A stretch of DNA of 64,000 bases, from assembly GCA_022822525.1 (NCBI GenBank), contig JAJEBN010000024.1, positions 1 to 64,000 of the forward strand, written 5' to 3'. The stretch comes from Acidimicrobiia bacterium. GTDB lineage: Bacteria; Actinomycetota; Acidimicrobiia; Acidimicrobiales; Poriferisodalaceae. Each line of letters opens with the position of its first letter. Positions within the stretch are counted from its first letter, which is position 1. The position numbers and the translations under genes are program-made. Below, one piece after another: positions 30,597 through 41,437 of the stretch. The notes under the pieces are model-generated. The model saw nothing but the letters and a program-made list of their open reading frames with translations, had not been told where the DNA came from and did no database searches.

Positions 30597-30762
30597 CGAA
30601 CCGGCGCGCCTGTCCAGACTCGGGCGCCTCGCGCAGGTAACTTCGGGTCTGGTGCAGGGCCCGGCCGAGCCCGACTGCTGCGGGCGCAATCTCGCCGATC
30701 CGCAGCAGCACGGCGCAGAACGCCACACCCTGCCCGCCACACACGACGACAGGAGCGCGCTC

Positions 30763-31122
30763 ATGGCAGAGGTGACGATCTACCACAACCCCCACTGAAA
30801 TTCCTCCCGGAATGCCTTGGCGGTCGCCGAGGAAGCAGGTGTGGAGGCCGACGTCGTCCTGTACATGAAGACGCCGCCCGACCGCGAGACGCTCGAGCAT
30901 CTCGTGTCGATTCTCGAGGACCCCGTCGAGGACTTGGTCCGCAAGGATTCGCAGTTCAAGAAGCTGGACCTGAACGCCGACGACTACGTCGACAATCCCG
31001 ACGCAGTGGTGGAGCTGCTGAGCCGGCGCAAGGCGCTCATGCAGCGCCCGGTCGTGGTGCGCGGAGACCGGGCCATCATCGGACGTCCGAAGGGTCGCAT
31101 CGCCGAGCTGCTGGCGGGCTGA
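30763..31122 (+). CDS. arsC: ArsC-family reductase with in-frame TGA (selenocysteine) at the catalytic cysteine, 119 aa
   Basis: The ATG at 30763 has AGGAG 7 bp upstream and reads MAEVTIYHNPH, then TGA at 30796-30798, then NSSRNALAVAEEAG and on to the normal end at 31122. ArsC proteins read YHNPxC at this point with catalytic Cys12; here codon 12 is TGA, so Sec12 is the natural reading. The rest is intact: the anion-binding arginine segments LVRKDSQFKKL and LMQRPVVVRGDRAIIGRP are present. A hairpin 16 nt after the TGA fits a bacterial SECIS. The family reduces arsenate or related thiol/selenol substrates with glutaredoxin- or mycoredoxin-like partners. selD, also with a TGA codon, is 6 kb away. 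Without recoding the ORF would start at 30817 and lack the active site. It could instead be a decayed gene, but no other lesion is visible. Confidence 0.9.
30815..30832 (+). promoter_or_regulatory. Bacterial SECIS-like hairpin in the ArsC gene
   Basis: CCTTGGC (30815-30821) pairs with GCCGAGG (30826-30832), seven pairs including one G-U, around the loop GGTC. The stem begins 16 nt after the TGA, and the loop starts with G, as bacterial SECIS elements bound by SelB do. An alternative small hairpin, ATTCC/GGAAT, lies between them (30800-30813). Confidence 0.7.
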
Positions 31123-37140: not shown

Positions 37141-38265
37141 GTGCCGACCGACAGCACCGCGAACAGCCCGGCGTTCCGGCTGAGCCAGTACAGCCACGGT
37201 GCGGGCTGAGCGTGCAAGCTCGGACCTTCCGAGCTGGCGCAGGTTCTGCGCCATCTGACTCCCCCGTCGCATCCGGATCTGCTGGTGGGCACCGACACCA
37301 GCGACGATGCTGCCGTGTGGCGCCTCGACGGCGACCGGCTGCTGGTGGCGTCGACTGATTTCTTCGCGCCGATCGTGGACGATGCCCGCACGTGGGGGCG
37401 CATTGCGGCCGCCAACGCCGCGAGCGACATCTACGCCATGGGCGCCAGCCCGCTGTTCGCCCTCAACCTGGCGGCCTGGCCCCGCGATGTGCTCCCGCTG
37501 GACTTGCTGGGCGAGGTGCTCGCCGGCGGCGCTGATGCCGCGGCCGACGGCGGCTGGGTGGTAGCCGGCGGTCACACCATTGACGCACCCGAGCCGCTCT
37601 ACGGAATGTCGGTGACCGGCACCATCGCAGCTGCTGCCGGAGGATTGGGCCTGCTGACCAATGCCGGGGGGCAGCCGGGCCAGGCCCTCGTGCTCACCAA
37701 GCCGCTCGGCACCGGCCTGCTCGCGACTGCGCTGAAGCGTTCCGAACCCGATGCCACTGGGCCCGACGGCAAACTGCATGCGGCCTACGAGGCCGGCGTA
37801 GCCGAGATGTGCCGGCTCAACGACGCGGCCGCCGCCGCTGCCGTCGAGGCAGGTGCCACAGCGGCCACCGATGTGACCGGCTTCGGCCTGCTGGGCCACC
37901 TCGCAGAACTCGCTGCGGCCAGCGGGGCGAGTGCCGAGGTGGATGCAGGCGCTGTGCCACTGCTGCCCGACGTCACCGGGCTCGCAACTGGCGGCTTCGT
38001 GCCCGGAGGCACCGGGCGCAACCTGGATCATCTCGCCGAGCGCATCGACGGCGGCGACGAACTCACTCGCACCGTACTCGGAGACCCGCAGACCTCGGGC
38101 GGTCTGCTGTTCAGCTGCGATCCCGCACGCGCCGATGACGCTGTCCGTGAGCTGCGCGACAACGGCCATTGCGCCGCAGTGATCGGCGAGCTCGCCGACG
38201 GACATTCCGGCACAATCACCATCGCCGGTGCCGTCGCCGGAGACGCCGGACCCTCGTCAGACTGA
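37141..38265 (+). CDS. selD: Selenide, water dikinase with in-frame TGA (selenocysteine) at its active-site cysteine
   Basis: SelD makes selenophosphate from selenide and ATP, the selenium donor for selenocysteyl-tRNA and selenouridine. From the GTG at 37141 the frame reads VPTDSTANSPAFRLSQYSHGAG, then TGA at 37207-37209, then ACKLGPSEL. E. coli SelD has QYSHGAGCGCK here with catalytic Cys17, so codon 23 is selenocysteine, as in many SelD enzymes; the catalytic lysine (ACK) follows. The remainder is intact, with DDAAVW, AANAASDIYAMGASPLFAL, GGHTIDAPEPLYG and ATDVTGFGLLGHLAEL, ending in DPQTSGGLL. The 374-residue length is normal. An internal start at 37285 would lack the entire ATP/selenide site. 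An 8-bp hairpin follows the TGA. Confidence 0.93.
37217..37235 (+). promoter_or_regulatory. SECIS-candidate hairpin in selD
   Basis: AGCTCGGA (37217-37224) and TCCGAGCT (37228-37235) are perfectly complementary around CCT, starting 7 nt after the TGA. The position suits a bacterial SECIS, but the loop has no G at its start and the spacing to the TGA is short, so this element is less canonical than that in the ArsC gene. Confidence 0.5.
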
Positions 38266-39956: not shown

Positions 39957-41393
39957 CTAGAGCTCGAGCAGGGCGTTCTCGACGACCTCGGTCAGCGCCG
40001 GGTGGATGTAGAACTGCTCGTGGGCCATCTGGTCGACCGTCTGGCCGAACGCCATGCCTTGGATCAGCTGCTGGATCAGGGTGGATGCCTGCGGCCCGAT
40101 GATGTGTGCGCCGAGCAACTGGCGGGTCTCTGCATGCGCGATGAGCTTCGCGAAGCTGGCGGTGTCCTCCATCGCCCAGCCGTATGCCGTGTGGCCGAAG
40201 GGCTTGTTCGCCACCGAGATCGGCAGGCCCTGCGCCCTGGCGTCTCGCTCGGTGAGGCCGACCGACGCGACCTGAGGGTGCGAGAACACGGCATGGGGAA
40301 CCAGGTCCTCCCGGACGGTGCGCATAGGACCGTCGACCTCGCCCTCGGCCACCAGCAGGTTGTGACGCAAGGCACGCACCTGCGCATTGGCGAGGTGCTT
40401 GAGCTGGATCTCGCTCGACAGGTCGCCGAAGGCCCACACGCCGGGTGCCGAGGTACGGAAGAATTCGTCGGTCAGCACACGGCCGTCGGCGTCATCCACT
40501 CCTGCAAGGTCGAGGGCGAGCTGGTCGCCGTTGGGCACTCGCCCAGTGGCGACCAGCAGCACATCGGCACTCACCGACTCGGCTCGGCCCCCGCGGGTGA
40601 ACTCGACCGTGTAGCTGTTGCCGCGGCCGCTCGGCGAGCCATCGTTGGCGTACACAAAATCCGCGGCTGCGCCGCGCACTGAGGTCACCGTTGCGTCGAG
40701 GCGCAGGTCGAAGTGGCGCTGGGCCGCCGTGGTGAACGCCGCAGACACATCGTCATCCTCGGCCCGCAGCAGTCGCCCGCTGCGGTTGACCACCGTGACC
40801 TCGGTTCCCAGCGCCGAGAACACATAGCCCAGCTCGCAGGCGATGTACCCGCCGCCGAGCACGATCATCGAGGACGGCAGTGAGTCCAGCCGCATCACGG
40901 TGTCGGAGGTGTGGAACGGCACCGTGCCGAGGCCGCGGTACGGCGGCAGAAAGGCCCGGGCGCCAGCGCCGAGCACCACATGCCGCCCCGACACCGACTC
41001 GGTGCTGCCGTCGCCCATCCGTACGGCCAGGCGCCGGTCGCTCACAAAGCGAGCGTCGCCCTCGAACACGGTGACATTGGGGCACTCGGCACCGGAGCGG
41101 TAATCGCGCCCGCCTCTGGCGATGGGGTCAATGCGGCCGAAGACGCGATCCCGGATGGCAGGCCAGTCGGCGCTGTCGAAACTGGCGGCGATGCCGTAGT
41201 CGTCCGCCGTCGCAATGGTGTCGGCAACATCGGCTGCGTACACGAACATCTTGGAAGGGATGCAGCCCACATTCAGGCAGGTACCGCCGAACGTGCCGCG
41301 TTCGACGATCGCAATCGACCAGTCGTCGAACTCGGGACCGGGAATGGAATTGGCCGAGCCGGTGCCGACGATGACCAAGTCGAAATCTGCCAT
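39957..41393 (-). CDS. mtr: Mycothione reductase, 478 aa
   Basis: This flavoprotein disulfide reductase returns mycothione (MSSM) to mycothiol with NADPH and is a hallmark of actinomycetes. The FAD site is DLVIVGTGSANSIP (the GTGS-NS variant typical of this enzyme rather than of lipoamide dehydrogenase). The redox disulfide is Cys39/Cys44 in GGTCLNVGCIPSK. The NAD(P)H site is VLGGGYIACELGYVF, and the C-terminal HPALTEVVENALLEL supplies the catalytic His-Glu pair. I chose the ATG at 41393. A mycothiol system may serve as reductant for the ArsC selenoprotein (inference). Confidence 0.9.
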   Translation of the reverse strand: MADFDLVIVGTGSANSIPGPEFDDWSIAIVERGTFGGTCLNVGCIPSKMFVYAADVADTIATADDYGIAASFDSADWPAIRDRVFGRIDPIARGGRDYRSGAECPNVTVFEGDARFVSDRRLAVRMGDGSTESVSGRHVVLGAGARAFLPPYRGLGTVPFHTSDTVMRLDSLPSSMIVLGGGYIACELGYVFSALGTEVTVVNRSGRLLRAEDDDVSAAFTTAAQRHFDLRLDATVTSVRGAAADFVYANDGSPSGRGNSYTVEFTRGGRAESVSADVLLVATGRVPNGDQLALDLAGVDDADGRVLTDEFFRTSAPGVWAFGDLSSEIQLKHLANAQVRALRHNLLVAEGEVDGPMRTVREDLVPHAVFSHPQVASVGLTERDARAQGLPISVANKPFGHTAYGWAMEDTASFAKLIAHAETRQLLGAHIIGPQASTLIQQLIQGMAFGQTVDQMAHEQFYIHPALTEVVENALLEL

Positions 41394-41437
41394 GTGCGCA
41401 GTCAATCAGCGCTTCTCGCCAAGAGCAGCGACCGGCC

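Follow-up and report, generated by a model that had tools for sequence, protein, structure and literature searches.

The window, by which we mean the whole 64-kb stretch of DNA analysed here, carries on its forward strand an ArsC-family gene whose twelfth codon is TGA and, further along the same strand, a selenide, water dikinase gene (selD) that also contains one internal TGA. The features of these two genes are as follows.

30751..30755, forward strand: AGGAG ribosome-binding site, read directly, 7 nt upstream of the ATG at 30763.
30763..31122, forward strand: selenocysteine (Sec)-containing ArsC-family gene (arsC), 119 aa, assigned from profile matches, homologues, predicted fold and Foldseek.
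30796..30798, forward strand: Sec codon UGA at position 12, the catalytic nucleophile, in the motif U12-N-S-S15 (UxxS), assigned from the homologue column.
30815..30832, forward strand: SECIS hairpin with a 7-bp stem, CCUUGGC/GCCGAGG, assigned from covariation; it folds in isolation.
30822..30825, forward strand: apical loop GGUC of the SECIS hairpin, separated from the UGA by 23 nt and invariant in the group labelled A1.
37141..38265, forward strand: selD, a selenoprotein gene with one internal TGA, matching TIGR00476 above its cut-off (E=3e-106).

An earlier note on this DNA had placed the TGA of arsC exactly where ArsC has its nucleophilic cysteine, with the ribosome site, start, downstream frame and stop all intact. 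The frame, the profile matches and the column of homologues bear this out, the one nuance being that the stop is itself a TGA (31120-31122); the frame is open between codon 12 and this terminator, and one codon therefore has two meanings within the gene. With Cys read at codon 12, the protein matched the Pfam ArsC family PF03960 at 1e-14 (55 bits vs a cut-off of 24), and it is the sole PF03960 protein of the genome. With U read as C, it matched TIGR00014 at 2e-27, the 95.8 bits falling about 10 bits short of the 106.05 cut-off. The same note had foreseen that conventional annotation would truncate the gene, and the ordinary ORF list indeed gives only a 101-aa truncated ORF with a TTG start, from 30817, so that this conserved redox enzyme can readily escape notice.

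A homologue was present in 142 of the 395 Acidimicrobiia genomes compared, with exactly one internal TGA in almost all of the closest, and a second collection yielded 80 loci, which came almost entirely from Acidimicrobiia or from unnamed actinobacterial assemblies. Among the 148 distinct sequences that were left after removal of duplicates, position 12 was encoded by TGA in 117, by TGC in 26 and by TGT in 5, and by no other codon. Some homologues had been flagged as containing two TGA codons; these proved to have one Sec-TGA and a normal TGA stop that the search had read through. Downstream of the TGA, dN/dS was 0.05-0.22 in the pairs tested, indicating purifying selection. Because 117 distinct homologues share the TGA and dN/dS past it is low, its presence in arsC is not a matter of chance, in agreement with the earlier judgement that a random nonsense mutation was unlikely. 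The genome is a draft assembly of 114 contigs and most of its relatives are metagenome-assembled, so one might suspect that the gene is decaying and that its TGA arose by nonsense mutation or through faulty assembly. This explanation is refuted by the conservation of the same TGA across many separate assemblies, and it is also opposed by the constraint on the downstream sequence, by the covariation of the SECIS element described below, and by the finding that the related genomes carry no other lesions in the gene; we regard it as practically inconceivable. On a tree built without the position-12 column, at least seven changes between Sec and Cys, counted without direction, were needed, compared to a mean of 28.6 after shuffling; at least two of them are forced by well-supported branches, and many other branches are weak.

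The host genome encodes a complement of Sec machinery. A tRNA-Sec with the anticodon UCA (TCA in the DNA) is present on contig C37, where selA and selB adjoin each other, and SelD, encoded in the window, would supply the selenium donor for Sec synthesis. We read the start of selD as the GTG at 37141, and its Sec-TGA (37207-37209) lies within the motif SHGAGUACK, at the site where Sec-SelD proteins carry Sec. A strong hairpin downstream in selD, AGCUCGGA-CCU-UCCGAGCU, is without the usual loop G. When the TGA-interrupted frames of the window were scanned by eye, arsC and selD were the only convincing Sec genes.

Two genes of one window with an internal UGA could also point to readthrough through a general change of the code or a suppressor, such as UGA read as Trp, instead of Sec. 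However, UGA terminates serB, selD and arsC, both internal UGAs are located at catalytic Cys positions of known Sec families, tRNA-Sec(UCA), SelA and SelB are at hand, and position 12 alternates with Cys codons only, all of which makes such readthrough highly improbable. Among 80 mostly high-quality genomes, selA was present in 44/44 of those with a TGA-ArsC vs 17/36 of those with a Cys-ArsC (Fisher p=7e-9, uncorrected for relatedness). The selenocysteine reading put forward in the earlier note is supported by this machinery, by the conserved TGA and by the covarying SECIS, and the internal 'stop' is almost certainly read as Sec, which would there be the catalytic residue of an enzyme resembling arsenate reductases. 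Of the two findings that the note had named as refuting this reading, a genome devoid of Sec machinery and further lesions of the gene in related strains, neither was made.

The hairpin that follows the UGA of arsC satisfies the published constraints of the bSECIS model, which are a position just 3' of the UGA, a G in the apical loop, and a spacing of 16-37 nt (PMC13188914). It was nearly invariant in the clade of the window gene. In the 84 sequences chosen for carrying GCGGTCGC, which encloses the GGUC loop, the offset of this core was identical throughout (84/84); 15 of 99 sequences of the same type were without it, 14 of these 15 falling in or beside the Ilumatobacter-type and GUGxSRG subgroups, and it was absent from all 31 Cys homologues. 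Across 78 distinct sequences, 99.8% of stem cells were paired, and 27 cells were compensatory (double-changed), compared to a mean of 3.7 after shuffling (0/500 shuffles). Double-sided changes occurred at three stem pairs (CG to UA, UA to GC or CG, and GC to AU), and pairing was destroyed when the stem partners were slid. Because the hairpin stretch is also coding, the codons beneath it are frozen: Ala20 was GCG and Val21 was GTC in 84/84 of the sequences selected for the core, and Leu19 was TTG or TTA in 71/72, TTG accounting for 12% of Leu codons elsewhere in the same genes. The 45 nt after the TGA folded at -16.1, and the folding energy of the window hairpin was by itself non-significant (z -1.1); the case for a SECIS element therefore rests on covariation and codon constraint. 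A search with RF00031 gave no match and was uninformative, since that model describes the eukaryotic SECIS and the control was equally silent. When a SECIS model was run across the genome, none of the five best matches after arsC was a credible Sec gene, and the second-best match overall (contig C1, 21 bits) lay in a P-type ATPase-like coding sequence with no in-frame UGA.

The Ilumatobacter-type group has a different conserved hairpin, CAAUGC-CGUGM-GCAUUG, at shorter spacing and with no covariation. Within the 45 nt after the TGA, this element was observed in a subclade comprising L047, L120, L124, L148, L169-L172, L175-L177 and L188. In the GUGxSRG Sec lineage no consensus hairpin was found, and one of its members, L144, has GGGC-GGUC-GCCC. 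The alternative hairpin of the one subclade possibly reflects turnover of the SECIS element inside a single family.

Arg60, Arg95, Pro96, Arg108 and Pro109, together with Sec or Cys at position 12, were invariant in 148/148 homologues. The arginine motifs that had earlier been described as intact are so across the family, and R60, R95 and R108 align with R60, R94 and R107 of R773 ArsC, which bind arsenate in that enzyme. The AlphaFold model of the protein had a mean pLDDT of 94.5, and Foldseek returned the ArsC structures 3rdw, 3f0i and 1jzw as the closest (TM 0.80-0.84), ahead of Spx, with a TM of 0.84 between the model and arsenate-soaked 1jzw. Both the fold and the catalytic arginines match those of glutaredoxin-type ArsC. 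The glutaredoxin-coupled ArsC of E. coli R773 (1i9d, 1j9b, 1jzw) has the same fold, the nucleophile at position 12 and the arginine triad Arg60/94/107, whereas the window protein has Sec in place of Cys, about 30% identity and a shorter C-terminus, with no adjoining ars genes and no glutaredoxin found in its genome. Spx and YffB have the ArsC superfamily fold in common with the window protein, but their sequence match to it is much weaker. Spx itself regulates transcription and has a CxxC switch.

The gene very probably encodes an ArsC-type reductase into which Sec would be incorporated in the cell, and the description 'selenol ArsC-type reductase' is well founded. In the mechanism that we propose, SelB with Sec-tRNA-Sec would decode UGA12 under the guidance of the hairpin, the stem and GGUC loop of which start 17 nt and 24 nt, respectively, after this codon, and translation would be ended by the terminal UGA of arsC itself. 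In the predicted ArsC (thioredoxin-like) fold, Sec12 occupies the start of the first helix, the place of the ArsC nucleophile, together with the conserved Arg60, Arg95 and Arg108. If the established mechanism of ArsC applies, its selenolate would attack an oxyanion, arsenate being the most likely one, to give a Se-As(V) adduct that would be resolved by a low-molecular-weight thiol and/or a redoxin. Because the protein has zero Cys residues, electrons must come from outside, and the likely donors are mycothiol or thioredoxin. A mycothione reductase gene located 9 kb away (39960-41405, reverse strand; NF005884 above cut-off, TIGR03452 just below) suggests that mycothiol is used in this lineage, making it a plausible thiol.

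Arsenate is a reasonable guess as the substrate, and one that we slightly favour. We hold this part of our reading with considerably less confidence than the Sec reading, since the TIGR00014 cut-off was missed, no acr3, arsB or PF00462 glutaredoxin-family protein was matched at E<=0.001 in the genome, and no ars genes were found among the neighbours here or in about a dozen relatives checked; at 98% completeness the assembly leaves a little room for partner genes that were missed. The reservation in the earlier note, that the sequence does not reveal the substrate, stands. A Sec protein on the ArsC fold could instead have a housekeeping redox role, with a peroxide, a disulfide, a mycothiol adduct or another oxyanion as its substrate and not arsenate. 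The missing arsenic partners are in keeping with such a role, as are the mycothione reductase encoded nearby and the presence of this only PF03960 protein of the genome in a serB-arsC-gcvT-gcvP block, which recurs in about 13 relatives. Against it are the invariance of all three arsenate-binding arginines and the weaker match, in sequence and in fold, of the Spx-type relatives; moreover, ArsC genes are often located outside ars operons. We hold a substrate other than arsenate to be a serious possibility, if a tentative one. The flanking genes here belong to serine and glycine metabolism and are others in relatives, and the serB/gcvT/gcvP neighbourhood was set aside as a functional clue, its association being limited to near relatives.

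It is conceivable, although more speculative still, that the ArsC-fold selenoprotein of Acidimicrobiia is now a widespread housekeeping reductase, uncoupled from arsenite efflux and from glutaredoxin, whose SECIS element has been rebuilt at least once. The suggestion of rebuilding arises because the subclades differ in their hairpins (CCUUGGC-GGUC-GCCGAGG vs CAAUGC-CGUGM-GCAUUG) and no hairpin is common to the members of a third Sec lineage. If this were true, one family would offer a natural series for studying Cys/Sec switches and SECIS turnover inside coding sequence.

The earlier note had also described Sec-containing ArsC-like proteins as rare, which needs qualifying. The Global Ocean Sampling (GOS) study already listed Sec-ArsC UxxS among its predicted selenoprotein families, with 77 sequences (PMC2398784), and the family is included in a 2022 review (PMC9312934, with MBT3519430.1 as the example) and in a 2026 review, according to which the functions of such proteins are largely uncharacterised (PMC13188914). 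ArsC-like Sec proteins have been found in Deltaproteobacteria as well (PMC1794560). The window protein is of the same Pfam family as the listed one (pfam03960/COG1393/TIGR00014) and likewise has UxxS with Sec replacing the catalytic Cys, a likeness drawn from the listing and not from the sequence of MBT3519430.1. The arsenate reductase-like UxxC selenoprotein (NF041106, PMC13188914; 'Arsenate reductase 2' of the GOS study) is another ArsC-like Sec protein, but UxxC proteins have a second redox residue, whereas the window protein is UxxS with no Cys at all, and NF041106 was not among its profile matches. Since UxxS Sec-ArsC is already listed, the window gene is an unusually well-supported addition to a known family. 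The listed entries are predictions; the present analysis adds the host with its Sec machinery, a SECIS that covaries, and the wide occurrence of the gene among Acidimicrobiia. What is new is thus the clear host group and the SECIS, the selenoprotein family itself being known from marine metagenome surveys; our literature search found no paper in which selenocysteine, selenoprotein and Acidimicrobi* all occur. Acidimicrobiia are a widespread, mostly uncultured class of actinobacteria. With many related Sec and Cys forms, and with a SECIS that is strictly conserved in the Sec forms of the main clade, the family lends itself well, as a natural system, to tests of the contribution of Sec to an ArsC-type enzyme and of how a SECIS element is retained or replaced within coding sequence.

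Several further observations were made on the homologues. The base preceding the Sec-UGA was T in 100/117 Sec genes vs 3/31 Cys genes, the window gene itself having C (30795), and the base following the UGA was never T among Sec genes. The codon for His11 was CAT in 64/69 main-clade genes vs 35/262 His codons elsewhere in Sec genes. These biases suggest a selected context around the UGA. Two assemblies labelled Akkermansiaceae (L100:5001-5354 and L101:469-822) carry a Sec-ArsC that is nested among Acidimicrobiia sequences on the tree, reflecting either mis-binning or horizontal transfer. Some small genomes of the order (L184-L187; G246, G187, G169, G336) contain two different Sec-ArsC paralogues, one of the UHAS type and one of the GUGKS type.
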